Shown piece by piece: positions 8,727-13,498 of a DNA stretch of 64,000 bases; within the stretch, counting starts at the first letter, position 1, and each line of letters starts with the position of its first letter. The notes below the pieces were generated by a model, which worked only from the letters and a program-made list of their open reading frames with translations, was not told the DNA's origin and ran no database searches. The translations under genes and the position numbers were made by a program. Source of the DNA: Cellulomonas sp. Root485 (lineage in GTDB: Bacteria > Actinomycetota > Actinomycetes > Actinomycetales > Cellulomonadaceae); the NCBI RefSeq assembly GCF_001426705.1, contig NZ_LMFC01000002.1, positions 1,980 to 65,979 of the forward strand, read 5' to 3'.

Positions 8727-9349
8727 GCGACCTGACCACCCTGATGTCCCGCGCGACCGCCACCGTCGACGCGACGCCCGCCGCGGTGCTCGACGACGAC
8801 GTGAGCCGCGGGCAGCGCGCCCGCCGTCGCCGCACGCGCCTGGTCGGCACCGGCGTGGCGGCCGCCCTCGCGGCCGTGGTCGCGGTCGGCGCGCCGCTGA
8901 CCTCGACCACCCCGTCGGCCGCCGCGGCCGAGCTCGTCGCCTACACGGCCGAGCAGCCTGCGGGGTTCACGATCGCGGAGGTCCCCGAGGGCTGGCACGT
9001 GCTGTCCTCCGACCGGACCAGCCTGGTGCTCGCCGACAGCGAGGACGACGGCTCGGACCCGAACAGCTTCGAGGGTCGGATCGTCGCAAGCCTCGTCGGT
9101 TCGGAGTCGCTGCCGGGCGGCGACCTCGAGGCGCAGACCTTCGCTGTCGGCGGTCAGGAGGTGCTCGTGTACGAGATGCTCGACGCGGACGGCGAGCCCG
9201 GCGGGACCCTCGGGGTGTTCGTGCCCGAGGGCGACGGGGACTACCTCTCGGTCCAGCTCCCGCCCGAGCTCCACTGGACGGGCGAGGTCGCCGCACGGTT
9301 CGTCGACGGGCTCGATGTCACCGACCAGGCGGGCCACACGGTCGGCTGA
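8723..9349 (+). CDS. Single-pass membrane protein, probable anti-sigma factor
   Basis: 208 aa. A short cytoplasmic N-terminus (residues 1-40) with an Arg cluster QRARRRRTR precedes one membrane segment (about 41-60, GTGVAAALAAVVAVGAPL). The rest is an acidic extracytoplasmic domain. It has no HXXXCXXC zinc anti-sigma motif. Overlap with the upstream sigma gene and the topology make it the likely regulator of that sigma factor; this is inference from arrangement. A perfect 13-bp stem hairpin follows ten bases after the stop. Confidence 0.75.
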   Translation: MSDLTTLMSRATATVDATPAAVLDDDVSRGQRARRRRTRLVGTGVAAALAAVVAVGAPLTSTTPSAAAAELVAYTAEQPAGFTIAEVPEGWHVLSSDRTSLVLADSEDDGSDPNSFEGRIVASLVGSESLPGGDLEAQTFAVGGQEVLVYEMLDADGEPGGTLGVFVPEGDGDYLSVQLPPELHWTGEVAARFVDGLDVTDQAGHTVG

Positions 9350-9358
9350 CCACTGAGC

Positions 9359-9398
9359 GGTGGTGCGGCGCAGGGGCACGAGCCCGCGCCGCACCACC
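9359..9398 (+). terminator. Hairpin terminator after sigma module 0
   Basis: GGTGGTGCGGCGC pairs perfectly with GCGCCGCACCACC across a 14-nt loop, ten bases after the anti-sigma stop. The remaining 300 bases up to 9700 contain only a short CTTCCG/CGGAAG hairpin near 9637-9654 and nothing else recognisable. Confidence 0.75.
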
Positions 9399-9700
9399 GG
9401 GTCATTCGGGCAGGACGTCGCCGGGTCGGGTCCGGTGGCCATGGTGACCGGCTCGCTAGGTGCGCTGTGCTGATTGGCGAGCAACGACCCGTGGCCACGT
9501 GGCCGCCCTCGTGAGACTGGCCCGGCGGAACACGCTCCGGGCGTCTGCCGTGGAGCAACCCGCCTGAGTCCCTCGAGCCCTCGGAGCCCTTCTCCAACTC
9601 GCGGTCGTCGTGACCGTGCGCCATGATCCGGGTGCTTCCGATTCACCGGAAGCATCAGACCCTCCGGCAGGCTCGCCGGACCCCTTCCCTTGGAGTGCCC

Positions 9701-9904
9701 ATGCTCGCGCTCGTCGCTGCCGCGATCTTCGCCCTCGCCCTGCTCCTCGACCTCCTCGAGGCGAACCTCGGGGACGCCTTTACCCCACAGCTGCTGATGT
9801 TTGCCGGTCTGTTCTTCCTCGCGCTGCACCTGGGAGGAGTCGGCGGCTCGTCGCCGGTGAACGGCGGCTGGCGGGGGCGTGGGGGGAGCTCCCGCCGGCG
9901 GTAG
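9701..9904 (+). CDS. Small hydrophobic membrane protein
   Basis: 67 aa from ATG 9701, preceded by TTGGAG at good spacing; a longer upstream reading frame to 9623 has no support. Two hydrophobic segments are visible: residues 2-18 (LALVAAAIFALALLLDL) and about 29-45 (PQLLMFAGLFFLALHLG). The tail is Gly/Arg-rich and would face the cytoplasm. No family is recognised; such two-helix proteins are common in Cellulomonadaceae-type genomes. It stands alone and ends before a long hairpin at 9945-9986. Confidence 0.65.
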   Translation: MLALVAAAIFALALLLDLLEANLGDAFTPQLLMFAGLFFLALHLGGVGGSSPVNGGWRGRGGSSRRR

Positions 9905-9944: not shown

Positions 9945-9986
9945 CCAAGAGGTCACGACGCGCTCCGCGCGTTCGTGGCCTCTTGG
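9945..9986 (+). terminator. Hairpin terminator after the small membrane protein
   Basis: CCAAGAGG-T-CACGA pairs with TCGTGG-CCTCTTGG around an inner CGCGC/GCGCG stem. A smaller CATTCC/GGAATG hairpin precedes it at 9928-9942. Its 3' arm directly abuts the first stem of repeat element copy A. Confidence 0.65.
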
Positions 9987-10076
9987 CATCTCGACAGCTG
10001 TCGAGATGTACGACAGATTGGCCGCGGCTGAGCGTCGTACCTTGACCGGTCGGCTGGTCCCAGCCCGGCCGGTCAA
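9987..10076 (+). repeat. Three-hairpin repeat element, copy A
   Basis: Three consecutive stems: CATCTCGACA/TGTCGAGATG (9987-10008, a perfect palindrome), GTACGAC/GTCGTAC (10008-10014 with 10034-10040), and TTGACCGGTCGG/CCGGCCGGTCAA (10042-10053 with 10065-10076, loop further pairing CTGG/CCAG). Copy B at 11014-11105 has the same layout and shares about 75% identity. Within stem 3 a G-C pair here is A-U in copy B, and a U-G is U-A, so the pairing is kept while the sequence changes. It ends 46 bp before the HAD gene. Confidence 0.7.
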
Positions 10077-10122
10077 AGTCCGGCGTCGGCGGAGTTCTTG
10101 CGACCATGGGGCCGTGCCAGCC

Positions 10123-10992
10123 ATGAGCCCCGTGCGGAGCAAGCTCGTCTTCCTCGACATCGACGGCACCTACGCGGTGCACGGAGTGGTGCCACCGGGT
10201 CACGAAGACGCCGTGCGCCGGGTGAGGGCGGCCGGCCACCGCGTCTTCCTGTGCACCGGCCGCTCCAAGGCGCTGCTGCCGACCGGCATCCTCGACGTCG
10301 GCTTCGACGGCCTGGTCGCCTCGGCCGGGTGCTATGTCGAGGTCGGGGGGAACCTGCTGATGGATCGCCGCTTCCCTGGTGACCTCGCCCGGCGGGTGGT
10401 GTCGCTCCTGGTCGAGCACGACGCGGCGTTCGTCCTCGAAGCGCCGGAGGCGCTGTACGGACCGCCCGGCGTAGACGACCGGTTGAGGGCGCTGCTCGGA
10501 CCAGGGGGCGGCCAGGAGCAGCATGGCGCCGACGACTTCCTCCGCGCGCTCCGGATGCTCGAGGACCTCTCGGAAGTCTCGTTCGCCAAGGTCACCTACC
10601 TGGCGGCAGCAGCACCGTGGACCGAGCTGCTGAGCTCTCTGGGGCCGAGGGTGGGTTTCGTGCCCAGCTCGATCGTCGAGGCCCACGACTTTGCCGGTGA
10701 GCTGTACCTGGTCGACGTCCACAAGGCCCTCGGGATCGAGCTGGTCCAACGACACCTCGCGGCTGAGCGAAGCGATGTCATCGCGTTCGGAGACGGCATC
10801 AACGACCTGGAGATGCTGGAGTACGCCGGCGTTGGCGTCGCGATCGAAGGGTCGGACGACAGGGTCATGGCGGTCGCGGACGCGTTCGCACGGGGCCCTC
10901 ACGTCGAGGGACTCGTCGCGTCGTTCGACGACTTGGGCCTGTACCGAACAGGCCACACCCGGCTCGATCCGGATCCGGGACATATCGGGTAG
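10123..10992 (+). CDS. HAD-superfamily (Cof/HAD-IIB type) hydrolase
   Basis: 289 aa from ATG 10123. Motif I DIDGT places the nucleophile at Asp12 and the second Asp at 14; motif II is the CTGRS near residue 47; a conserved Lys lies in VHKALGIE (about 203); motif IV is GDGINDLEML near 221. A substrate-specifying cap sits between motifs II and III, as in type IIB members that dephosphorylate sugar phosphates or flavin and pyridoxal precursors. It is cytosolic and of normal length. The specific substrate cannot be read from the sequence. Repeat copy A lies just upstream and copy B just downstream. Confidence 0.88.
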   Translation: MSPVRSKLVFLDIDGTYAVHGVVPPGHEDAVRRVRAAGHRVFLCTGRSKALLPTGILDVGFDGLVASAGCYVEVGGNLLMDRRFPGDLARRVVSLLVEHDAAFVLEAPEALYGPPGVDDRLRALLGPGGGQEQHGADDFLRALRMLEDLSEVSFAKVTYLAAAAPWTELLSSLGPRVGFVPSSIVEAHDFAGELYLVDVHKALGIELVQRHLAAERSDVIAFGDGINDLEMLEYAGVGVAIEGSDDRVMAVADAFARGPHVEGLVASFDDLGLYRTGHTRLDPDPGHIG

Positions 10993-11013
10993 TTGAACAG
11001 CCCAAGAACCTTG

Positions 11014-11105
11014 CATCTCGACAAACATGTCGAGATGTACGACAGATCGAACGCAGCTGAGCGTCGCACCTTGACTGATCGGCCAGTCCGCCGCCGATCG
11101 GTCAA
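11014..11105 (+). repeat. Three-hairpin repeat element, copy B
   Basis: Same architecture as copy A: CATCTCGACA/TGTCGAGATG with a 4-nt loop (11014-11037), GTACGAC/GTCGCAC with one mismatch (11037-11043 with 11063-11069), and TTGACTGATCGG/CCGATCGGTCAA (11071-11082 with 11094-11105). Stem 3 ends only a few bases before the GGAGGG ribosome-binding site of the next gene, so it could affect translation initiation there. Confidence 0.7.
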
Positions 11106-11122
11106 TACTCCGGAGGGCACGC

Positions 11123-11629
11123 GTGTTCGAGTTCAAGGTGGGTACGTCGAGGCAAGCAGTCTCCGCATTGTTCGGCGAAGGGCTCTCCCTTTTCAACAAG
11201 GCCTACGTCGAAGACCCTGACAACGGAACTCGCCTGATCCACGCGGGGGGAATCGGGCGCGATGGGGAGGACAGGGTTCGGGCCGGCGGTGCATACGTGC
11301 TGCGTTGGCACGGACTAGCCATCGGGCTGGAGTGCGAGGTCACACGACGCGAGGACGAGCACGGTTCCCACCCACTGTTCACGCTCTCTCACCTGGGCAC
11401 GAGCAACTTCGCCTGGATCAACGCGAACGTCGCCCCCGTCGAGCTCACTCCGGAGGACGCCGCCAAGGCAATGCAGGCTGCCGCTGAGGCGAGTGTCGTC
11501 CTCGAGTCGTATCGCGAGGACCACGGGCCGGGAAGCCGTGTGCGCGACCCGCTCGATGCGGGACGTGAGCTCTCGCCGGCCGACTTCGGCTACGGCGAGA
11601 TCACGCGTGCACCGTGGGGTGCCCGATGA
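11123..11629 (+). CDS. Hypothetical protein
   Basis: 168 aa. The start is the GTG at 11123, fixed by GGAGGG eight bases upstream. The composition is globular and slightly acidic, with LFGEGLSLFNKAYVEDPDNG near residue 17, an AYVLRWHGLAIGLECEV beta-rich segment near 58, and a helical EDAAKAMQAAAEASVVLESY segment near 112. No signal peptide, membrane segment or known motif is visible, and no family is recognised. Codon use is less GC-biased than in the core genes around it, suggesting acquired DNA. The same reading frame continues after its TGA for 65 more sense codons (see 11705). Confidence 0.7.
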   Translation: MFEFKVGTSRQAVSALFGEGLSLFNKAYVEDPDNGTRLIHAGGIGRDGEDRVRAGGAYVLRWHGLAIGLECEVTRREDEHGSHPLFTLSHLGTSNFAWINANVAPVELTPEDAAKAMQAAAEASVVLESYREDHGPGSRVRDPLDAGRELSPADFGYGEITRAPWGAR

Positions 11630-11704
11630 GCGCTGGCGAGCCCGATCATCAACGGCGACCTTCGACATGTCCGGCGCGCGTGGTGGGCACACCGCACCCC
11701 GGTC

Positions 11705-11827
11705 ATGGAAGTCAGCCACCTCCGTACCGCGGGTGGCGCGATTGGCGCTGCGCTCGGCGTCTGGGCGATGCAAGCGCTGACATCGAAGGGCGCCAGTTCG
11801 ACAGCCCCTGCACCGACTGCCACATGA
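11705..11827 (+). CDS. Possible 40-aa small ORF with one hydrophobic segment
   Basis: ATG 11705 to TGA 11827 encodes a 40-residue peptide with a hydrophobic Gly/Ala segment (GGAIGAALGVWAMQAL, about residues 10-25). It lies in exactly the same frame as the gene ending at 11629, with no stop between. It could be a separate small membrane peptide or the remnant of a longer protein cut by the TGA. No ribosome-binding site is evident. Confidence 0.25.
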   Translation: MEVSHLRTAGGAIGAALGVWAMQALTSKGASSTAPAPTAT

Positions 11828-11880
11828 ACTCAAACCCGGACAACTCGGGTAGTCAGACTATCGACGGCGTTTAGTCAAAG

Positions 11881-11900
11881 AATCTTGCATCTCGACAAAA
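11881..11900 (+). repeat. Truncated copy C of the three-hairpin repeat element
   Basis: ATCTTGCATCTCGACAAA-type sequence matches the left end of copy B (ACCTTGCATCTCGACAAA) but the matching right arm and stems 2 and 3 are missing. The sequence from 11828 to the dnaB stop contains nothing else recognisable. Confidence 0.5.
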
Positions 11901-11920
11901 GTCTCGACAAGTTCGAAGCG

Positions 11921-13297
11921 TCAGGCCTGCATGTCCACAAATCGCGAGTAGTGCCCTTGGAATGCCACGACGAGCGTGTCGGTAGGCCCATTTCGGTGCT
12001 TGGCAACGATCACGTCGGCTTCGCCGGCGCGTGGCGATTCTTTCTCGTAGGCATCCTCGCGATGCAGAAGGATGACGATGTCCGCATCTTGTTCGATACT
12101 TCCCGATTCGCGAAGGTCGCTCATCTGCGGCCGCTTGTCGGTGCGCTGCTCGGCGCCACGGTTCAGCTGTGAGATGGCGATGACCGGGACCTCAAGCTCC
12201 TTGGCCAGCAGCTTGAGTGCTCGGGAAAACTCGGAAACCTCCTGCTGGCGGGACTCGACGCGCTTGCCGGAGGACATCAGCTGCAGGTAGTCGATGACCA
12301 CGAGCTTGAGGTCGTGCTTCTGCTTGAGCCGCCGGCACTTGGCGCGGATCTCCATCAGGGACATGTTCGGCGAGTCGTCGATGAACAGCGGCGCCTCGGA
12401 GATCTTCCCCATGGTCGCGGCGATCTTGGCCCAGTCGTCCTCGCCCATCTGGCCGTTGCGCAGCTTCTGCAGGTGTACGCGAGCCTCGGCGGAGAGCAGT
12501 CGCATGGTGATCTCGTTGCGGCTCATCTCGAGAGAGAAGACGACAGACGTCATGTTGTGCTTGATTGACGCCGATCGCGCAATATCAATTCCCATGGTCG
12601 ATTTGCCAATTGCAGGCCTTGCAGCCAGGACAATCATTTGTCCGGGGTGCAATCCATTGGTCAATCTGTCCAGGTCCGAGAACCCCGTCGGCACGCCGAT
12701 CATGCCCTCGCCGCGGTGGCCGGCCGCCTCGATCTCGTCGACCGCGCCGCCGATGATGTCGCCGAGGATCAGGTAGTCCTCCGACGACCGCCGCTCGGTG
12801 ACGGCGTAGACCTCGGCCTGCGCGTTGTTCACGATCTCGTCGACGTCGCCGCCGTCGGTGCCGTAGCCGAGCTGGACGATGCGGGTGCCGGCCTCGACGA
12901 GCTTGCGGAGCACGGACCGCTCGCGCACGATCCGCGCGTAGTAGCCGGCGTTCGCGGCGGTGGGGACCGACGAGATGAGTGTGTGCAGGTAGGGGGCGCC
13001 GCCGATGCGCTGGATCTCGCCGCGCTTGGTCAGCTCGTCGGCGACGGTGATGGCGTCGGCCGGCTCGCCGCGGCCGTAGAGGTCGATGATCGCGTCGTAC
13101 ACGACCTCGTGCGCCGGGCGGTAGAAGTCGGTGCCGCGGATCTGCTCGACGACGTCGGCGATCGCGTCCTTGGAGATCATCATGCCGCCGAGCACGCTGC
13201 GCTCGGCGTCGAGGTCCTGCGGCGGGGTGCGGTCGTAGCCGCCGCCACCGCGGTTGGTCCCGGACGGCGCGCCGTACTCGAGGTCCTCGATCGTCAC
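11921..13297 (-). CDS. dnaB: Replicative DNA helicase DnaB
   Basis: 458 aa from the GTG at 13297; family members start close to TIEDLEYG, while in-frame ATGs further upstream would add unsupported residues. The N-terminal domain has PQDLDAERSVLGGMM (about residue 25). The RecA-like motor has Walker A ARPAIGKST, Walker B VVIDYLQLM, and the FSLEMS and ISQLNRGAE motifs. The hexamer unwinds DNA at the fork and is loaded at the oriC about 44 kb away. No intein is present. The 3' half (about 11.9-12.7 kb), including a stretch around 12.55-12.68 kb, is less GC-rich at third positions than the 5' half. A DnaA-box-like cluster lies 200-250 bp upstream. Confidence 0.95.
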   Translation of the reverse strand: MTIEDLEYGAPSGTNRGGGGYDRTPPQDLDAERSVLGGMMISKDAIADVVEQIRGTDFYRPAHEVVYDAIIDLYGRGEPADAITVADELTKRGEIQRIGGAPYLHTLISSVPTAANAGYYARIVRERSVLRKLVEAGTRIVQLGYGTDGGDVDEIVNNAQAEVYAVTERRSSEDYLILGDIIGGAVDEIEAAGHRGEGMIGVPTGFSDLDRLTNGLHPGQMIVLAARPAIGKSTMGIDIARSASIKHNMTSVVFSLEMSRNEITMRLLSAEARVHLQKLRNGQMGEDDWAKIAATMGKISEAPLFIDDSPNMSLMEIRAKCRRLKQKHDLKLVVIDYLQLMSSGKRVESRQQEVSEFSRALKLLAKELEVPVIAISQLNRGAEQRTDKRPQMSDLRESGSIEQDADIVILLHREDAYEKESPRAGEADVIVAKHRNGPTDTLVVAFQGHYSRFVDMQA

Positions 13298-13498
13298 GTG
13301 ATCCCCATCGTCGTCATCCGAACACATGTTCCATGGGGGGTCTGACATCCGCGCCCAGACGAGTTCCCAGGCGCAGCATCGGGTCCTCGCACTCGCGACG
13401 TTAGGGGGTTCGAGCCCGTCGTCCAAACGCCACTCCGCGCGCCTGTGGGCAACGTGCAGACTTCTGTGGAGCGAGCCCTCACCTACTGTGAGCGAGGC

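Follow-up and report, generated by a model that had tools for sequence, protein, structure and literature searches.

The question raised by this locus is whether a repeat that resembles a structured RNA acts in a transcript or is part of a mobile element. In the window analysed (the whole 64,000-nucleotide stretch, from Cellulomonas sp. Root485), the repeat is found at 9987 (copy A) and 11014 (copy B). The initial annotation described it as a three-hairpin element and proposed two roles, that of a cis-regulatory RNA and that of a structured mobile repeat. The latter came close, as the copies are best explained as mobile-element ends; the former is unsupported. Copies A and B, together with a partial copy C, are likely (with a probability of about 0.9) to be ends of two non-autonomous Tn7-like elements that lie in tandem and in the same orientation beside the 3' end of dnaB.

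The repeated element at 9987 and 11014 does exist. Copies A and B share a 78-nt core that is 81% identical (spacing 1029 in the window repeat analysis), and a BLAST search of the 4.65-Mb genome of the strain with copy A as the query recovers copy B at an E-value of 8.1e-17, far beyond chance, and no third full copy. The stem 3 changes described previously are also present: from copy A to copy B, a G-C pair becomes A-U and a U-G pair becomes U-A, and a third changed pair is C-G in copy A and U-G in copy B. Both copies fold strongly (z-scores against shuffles: -6.18 for copy A and -4.42 for copy B; 0/200 shuffles as good for each). The description of three stems at the same distances is not correct as regards identical distances or stem 2 of copy B. 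The arms of hairpin 1 are separated by GC (2 nt) in copy A and by AACA (4 nt) in copy B, and copy B carries a mismatch (GTCGCA) in stem 2 (TACGAC/GTCGTA), which is absent from the predicted fold of that copy. Each copy is directly followed by a gene, as stated: a HAD phosphatase gene after copy A and an ORF at 11123 after copy B, the latter with the ribosome-binding site CCGGAGGG followed by a GTG start at 11123.

Copies related to copy B are found by BLAST in 16/81 genomes of the genus, including that of the strain itself, and 23 aligned copies fall into two classes. In 14 copies, the inverted partner CATCTCGACA, or a close variant of it, stands before TGTCGAGATG; in the other nine, the sequence before TGTCGAGATG is unrelated and there is no CATCTCGACA arm for hairpin 1. 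The existence of these two classes indicates that the hairpin 1 palindrome is a meeting of two separate ends: on this alignment, hairpin 1 is the inverted termini CATCTCGACA/TGTCGAGATG abutting one another. The dnaB-distal end (D-end) has the layout TGTCGAGATGCACGACAGATTGACC...TACTTTGACCG...CGGTCAAAGTACG, while the dnaB-proximal end (P-end), read outward, finishes with ...AGTCAAACTATCTTGCATCTCGACA. Both ends start with 5'-TGTCGAGATG and have internal repeats of the motif TAGTTTGAC / TACTTTGAC, which are putative TnsB-binding sites. The Tn7-like family is defined by TGT...ACA termini with several internal transposase-binding repeats, and both TGT...ACA termini and a repeated internal motif are found in the aligned ends. 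The D-end holds direct and inverted copies of the motif that, as single strands, resemble stems 2 and 3; stem 3 consists of one DNA motif and its inverted copy (TTTGACCG / CGGTCAAA).

In the 20-kb stretches scanned, D- and P-ends form arrays that mostly run in one direction, and in many genomes the array is closed off next to dnaB by a P-end; numerous D-ends lack a P-end. Among the places listed in a 10-mer scan of the genus, clusters stand on a scattered background. In a search of genome contigs with an exact 18-mer, the two matches are in unrelated MAGs (L035 and L036). An element in G079 that carries transposition genes has apparent variant termini (TGTCGACGTG...) at about 4123135 and 4146725 (L091 and L043), which suggests that there are end subtypes differing in specificity.

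In the window, these ends delimit two mini-elements. E1 (9999-11023; 1,025 bp) consists of a D-end, a HAD-IIB phosphatase gene and a P-end. Its D-end (9999..10085, plus strand), which makes up the rest of copy A, scores E 3.4e-20 in its own genome with a model to which it belongs. The cargo gene (10123..10992, plus strand) encodes a 289-aa HAD-IIB/Cof-like phosphatase (PF08282, E-value: 4.5e-32; TIGR01484 above and TIGR00099 below cut-off). The P-end of E1 (10974..11023, plus strand) falls 13 bp short of the length of its G025 relative, which may have left it inactive, and is separated from E2 by a 4-bp junction, AACA (11024..11027), the flanking termini of which form hairpin 1 of copy B. Copy B thus reads as the P-end of E1 abutting the D-end of E2. 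E2 (11028-11897; 870 bp) comprises a D-end (11028..11110, plus strand; E-value: 2.2e-15) that makes up the rest of copy B, an orphan 168-aa ORF (11123..11629, plus strand) and a P-end (11831..11897, plus strand). The ORF was missed by the simple gene caller, has a GC3 of 0.77 compared to 0.87 for the HAD gene, shows no Pfam or NCBIfam match and has one weak match among the 149 other genomes of the family. The P-end of E2 is copy C, recognised by its repeat match to copy B. What was taken for a truncated third copy at 11881 reproduces just one part of the repeat, namely the upstream (P-end) half of copy B, and in copy B this P-end reaches approximately 40 bp further upstream of 11014 (GGACATATCGGGTAGT...). 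A 23-bp spacer (11898..11920) separates the P-end terminus of E2 from the stop codon of dnaB (11921..13327, minus strand). This replicative helicase gene, named from its sequence, is the putative attachment gene; its relative in G077 matches PF03796 and PF00772.

The left arm of hairpin 1 in copy A is an isolated P-end terminus, CATCTCGACA (9987..9996, plus strand), and is probably a remnant of an older element abutting E1. No P-end interior is left before 9987, because the CCTCTTGG found there belongs to another inverted repeat, CCAAGAGG...CCTCTTGG (9945-9952 with 9979-9986). The stretch CGCGCGTTCGTGGCCTCTTGG by this repeat recurs upstream of a D-end in G010 and is probably a chromosomal flank common to the arrays. 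Further upstream is an ORF for a 67-aa small membrane-protein-like product (9701..9904, plus strand) with similar ORFs in G000, G018 and G077; it flanks the dnaB-distal side of the arrays in several relatives, and a longer reading of it has no Pfam match. A strong 17-bp inverted repeat with an 8-nt loop (9358-9374 with 9383-9399), following a gene that ends at 9349, is possibly a terminator.

E1 is also present in G025, where it again adjoins dnaB. The two copies are identical at 977/1002 positions (97.5%), and the alignment begins one base before the TGTCGAG terminus; the sequences upstream of E1 are unrelated. Because dnaB itself is 90% identical between the window and G025 (over 300 bp), the higher identity of E1 suggests that it may have been transferred as a unit, which is counted in favour of the Tn7-like explanation. 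E1 and E2 carry no tns genes of their own and one recognised cargo ORF each, and TniQ (PF06527) has 0 matches in the genome of the strain. On these grounds they are classified as non-autonomous derivatives, and nothing known in this genome would be able to move them now.

The location of the ends was assessed with a sequence-only D-end model (R1) built from 46 D-ends, partly from stretches near dnaB, which has matches in 33/81 genus genomes at E<=0.01. Among the 92 matches listed at E<1e-7 (a count that leaves out weaker and unlisted ones), 83 are on the same contig as dnaB and nine are on other contigs. Within 100 kb of dnaB are 76 of these 83, with seven far from it; all 76 are on the 3' side of the gene and 75 have the orientation seen in the window, a pattern in which insertion beside a conserved gene is specific in both site and orientation. 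A count made by hand, and without use of the model, places 18 of the 23 BLAST matches of copy B in other genomes within 100 kb of dnaB on the same contig. At the family level, D-end matches (E<=0.001) occur in 19/150 genomes, of which 13 belong to other genera. Seven of these 13 were checked: four have a match less than 30 kb from dnaB on the same contig and in the same orientation, one has a match far from dnaB and two have matches on other contigs.

An anchor motif was carried by 18 of 30 dnaB loci. Among these 18 (the 12 loci without the motif being left out of the count), a P-end terminus is clearly recognisable near the stop codon in 11, a variant terminus is present in two and there is none in five. 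The distance from this terminus to the dnaB stop codon, counted by hand, is 23 bp in the window, 11 bp in G024, 31 bp in G014 and 23 bp in G078. In G042, an array and a TniQ gene are located approximately 50-90 kb from dnaB, and the immediate 3' flank of dnaB looks empty. The dnaB product itself varies in length, with 781-1163 aa in G077, G016, G041, G038 and G047 compared to about 460 aa elsewhere, as predicted by the simple gene caller. In G077 (L050:14929-17517), the extra part contains a LAGLIDADG homing-endonuclease domain, so dnaB is an intein host as well as the putative transposon attachment gene.

Transposition genes are found in relatives of the strain. TniQ (PF06527) is present in 12/81 genus genomes and 0/14 control genomes. 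Pairs of tniQ genes lie inside the arrays of three genomes (G024, G074 and G079). G036 has a single tniQ gene near dnaB, and G042 has one inside its D-end cluster. The arrays of G074 and G079 contain a TnsA-TnsB-TnsC-TniQ-TniQ operon; in the G024 operon, a continuous TnsA frame was not found. TnsA is identified by NCBIfam NF033179 (TnsA_like_Actin), over the cut-off in both G074 (E-value: 6.8e-39) and G079 (E-value: 6.9e-35), and has no Pfam match. TnsB is a DDE transposase encoded between the ends in G024, G074 and G079, absent from the window units, with Mu-transpos_C/rve matches and the DD(35)E residues kept in 3/3 proteins. The operon also encodes a TnsC AAA+ ATPase (PF05621) and two PF06527 proteins; in G074, the E-values are 6.2e-11 for TnsC/TniB, 5.2e-9 for TniQ, 1.4e-26 for the larger TniQ and 5.5e-6 for Mu-transpos_C. 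When compared by sequence to proteins of solved structure, TnsB matches a solved TnsB (1.7e-5) and the larger TniQ matches a solved TniQ (2.6e-5), with no match for TnsC. G074 and G024 share 99.6% identity in the TnsB protein, 93.9% in operon DNA over 6.2 kb and 92.2% in dnaB; as the operon and dnaB values are close, a recent transfer of the operon is unsupported. The arrays have other cargo as well. A Wadjet system (JetA, B, C and D; L043:7929-14792) lies beside the Tn7-like operon in the G079 array, and an AbiJ-type abortive-infection gene (L091:10080-10946) lies between the tns operon and dnaB in the same genome. NUDIX and acetyltransferase genes were recognised by eye only.

In relatives, elements with tnsA-tnsB-tnsC-tniQ-tniQ are bounded by the same ends as the window units. 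Alternatively, the ends could belong to a different DDE element (Tn5053-, IS21- or Mu-like, or a MITE of one of these), with the Tn7-like operons of the three relatives being chance neighbours. TGT...ACA ends with internal repeats occur across that superfamily, the best NCBIfam match of TnsB is IS481 (below cut-off) and the window units have no transposase. However, the operon includes TnsA, TnsC and two TniQ proteins and sits between ends of this family in both G074 and G024, and the insertions are site- and orientation-specific beside a conserved gene, as in Tn7-like homing. A different DDE element is therefore improbable.

Target-site duplications provide a further comparison. Adjacent D- and P-ends have identical 5-bp flanks in two cases: CGTAC in G074, where the two ends are on different contigs, and ATTGC in G043. 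Overall, flank 5-mers match in 4/149 same-genome D/P pairs, two of which are non-adjacent ends, as against 21/3379 between-genome pairs. Neither window element has an exact 5-bp duplication (flanks ACAGC/AACAT for E1 and AAACA/AAAGT for E2), and the evidence for these units consequently consists of their ends, their position and the comparison with G025. In G024 and G074, a D-end directly adjoins the interior of a P-end belonging to a different element, which suggests that a later element landed inside the P-end of an earlier one; the nested unit of G024 has no 5-bp duplication (TGAAG/AATCG, by eye).

The G043 unit with the exact duplication (L046, G043:C2) is located away from the chromosomal dnaB. 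Its P-end terminus is 47 bp from a stretch encoding AFPGHFSRFVE, comparable to the DnaB C-terminal sequence AFQGHYSRFVD; in the window, the same codons are 42 bp from the P-end terminus. The pattern G[HY][YFW]SRF[VI] occurs 21 times in the 1.17 Mb of fetched stretches (overlaps counted), 20 times in dnaB and once in G043. It was considered whether the G043 stretch is part of a dnaB-like gene, and this was rejected: a tblastn search with DnaB over 2 kb gave the 11-residue match (E-value: 0.036) and one chance-level match, and there is an in-frame stop upstream. Given the short match and the stop, the stretch is termed a short mimic of the 3' end of dnaB. No DnaB-like stretch was found at the other far D-end sites examined, including the two-ended unit of G036. 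The G043 unit is a single case that supports recognition of the 3' coding DNA of dnaB. A TrwC relaxase gene is found near this unit.

The structured appearance of the repeat must also be weighed, as the three hairpins could act in the transcript as a leader controlling the gene just downstream. Besides the strong single-sequence folds, the double compensatory change between copies A and B, the gene right behind each copy and the good ribosome-binding site after copy B, this explanation is favoured by covariation. Imposed on 46 ends, the stems give a covariation score of 0.211, compared to a shuffled mean of 0.160 (reached by 0/500 shuffles) and at most 0.118 for slid controls, a score for which related sequences may beat every shuffle; 81 cells are changed on both sides compared to 59.6. 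However, RNAalifold finds no real structure over the 46 D-ends (-0.56 kcal/mol; 4 pairs, none compensated), and double-sided changes affect 14 pairs, no more than in shuffles (13.5). Imposing stems 2 and 3 on the D-ends leaves 66% of cells paired. In stem 3, the inner six positions fail to pair in 20-31 of the 46 copies, and the conservation of the outer seven pairs is mainly one of sequence. Nor is the position constant. A gene follows within 600 bp downstream of 62 of the 68 D-ends assessed, which come from 20 regions; it shares the strand of the D-end in 24 cases and is on the opposite strand in 38 (38/62). The six D-ends with no such gene include that of E2, whose ORF was missed by the gene caller. 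The left arm of hairpin 1 is lacking in 9/23 copies, the copies are confined to the neighbourhood of dnaB and transposition operons lie between the ends. Rfam gives 0 matches at the gathering score and, at E<=5, only sub-threshold matches far below the cut-offs. Without a conserved covarying structure, a described RNA family or a constant position and strand, an RNA leader is highly improbable. The excess covariation presumably reflects inverted copies of one protein-binding motif together with the relatedness of the sequences. An integron-like array, in which cassettes separated by attC-like hairpins are moved by a tyrosine recombinase, would fit the short, co-oriented cargo units, the single cluster per genome and the repeats with a variable inner part, but is hardly credible given the two different ends of each complete unit, the unconserved single-strand structure, the 5-bp flanks that match exactly for two pairs of adjacent ends and the tns operons inside the arrays.

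Returning to the Tn7-like explanation, a model for the growth of the dnaB arrays can be proposed, in which the mobility of the elements is deduced from sequence comparison. A TnsD-like TniQ would recognise the conserved 3' coding end of dnaB and direct insertion a few tens of bases past the gene, sparing it. As the spared dnaB would stay reusable, the next element would land within the P-end of its predecessor or directly at it, and repeated rounds would build arrays of D-end, cargo and P-end units, many of which would then have lost their tns genes or one end. Related bacteria have most likely filled the dnaB site with new genes repeatedly. A bolder extension, offered tentatively and at clearly less than even odds, is that the dnaB 3' end serves as a "transposition-built integron". 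Immunity would be weak or evadable, the newest unit would lie by the gene and a TnsD-like selector would read the DNA encoding GHYSRFV; small gene units, some of them non-autonomous and mobilised in trans, would continue to arrive at one spot, where an ordered cassette array with a single direction would grow. The G043 mimic (approximately 33 bp), near a conjugative relaxase gene, would have served as a second landing site and so as an intercellular route.

The Tn7-like explanation accounts for a repeat family that resembles structured RNA and carries a warning that inverted protein-binding sites at transposon ends may mimic RNA covariation. It also singles out dnaB as a gene to which Tn7-like transposons of actinobacteria probably attach, defines the ends precisely and describes a safe site at which gene content appears to accumulate (a HAD phosphatase here; Wadjet and AbiJ in G079). 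If the ends and selector work as proposed, they would be candidates for a targeted-insertion tool in high-GC actinobacteria and would offer a natural test case for the evasion of target immunity.

Three known systems can be compared to these arrays. An integron cassette array is a local run of small, diverse cargo genes separated by repeats. The outcome at dnaB is alike, a local array of small, diverse cargo between repeats, but here it would arise by DDE transposition at a gene end instead of through an integrase acting at attI, and complete units have two ends of their own. Tn7 inserts at attTn7 directionally, just past the 3' end of the essential gene glmS, leaving the gene intact and creating a 5-bp duplication. 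The elements described here share directional insertion beyond the 3' end of an essential gene that is left intact, and differ in using dnaB in place of glmS and in having two TniQ proteins. They also differ in their repeated insertion at the same site, despite the target immunity known for Tn7 (main text of a 2024 review, PMC11406308).

The main text of that review gives glmS, tRNA and parE as attachment genes, in addition to describing target immunity, and homing to glmS is named both there and in the main text of Faure et al. 2023 (PMC10293859), which describes dual TniQ-TnsD operons. The word dnaB is absent from the main texts of these two papers and of Benler et al. 2021 (PMC8649781), and no report of dnaB as a Tn7-like attachment gene was found in the open literature, supplementary tables aside. 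The closest known counterparts in this literature are the Tn7-like transposons of an actinobacteria-dominated TnsB clade, none of which is experimentally characterised according to the main text of Benler et al. As far as these main texts describe that clade, the dnaB elements share with it the TnsA/TnsB/TnsC/TniQ operon, the motif arrays at both ends, a fixed site by a conserved gene and defence cargo (the Wadjet JetABCD system of G079). They differ from it in the putative attachment gene, dnaB, in the repeated pile-up at one site and, for the window units, in being approximately 1 kb long and single-gene, without tns genes. Overall, the arrays that home to and pile up at dnaB are judged to be a variant of the actinobacterial Tn7-like elements, and a mostly non-autonomous one.
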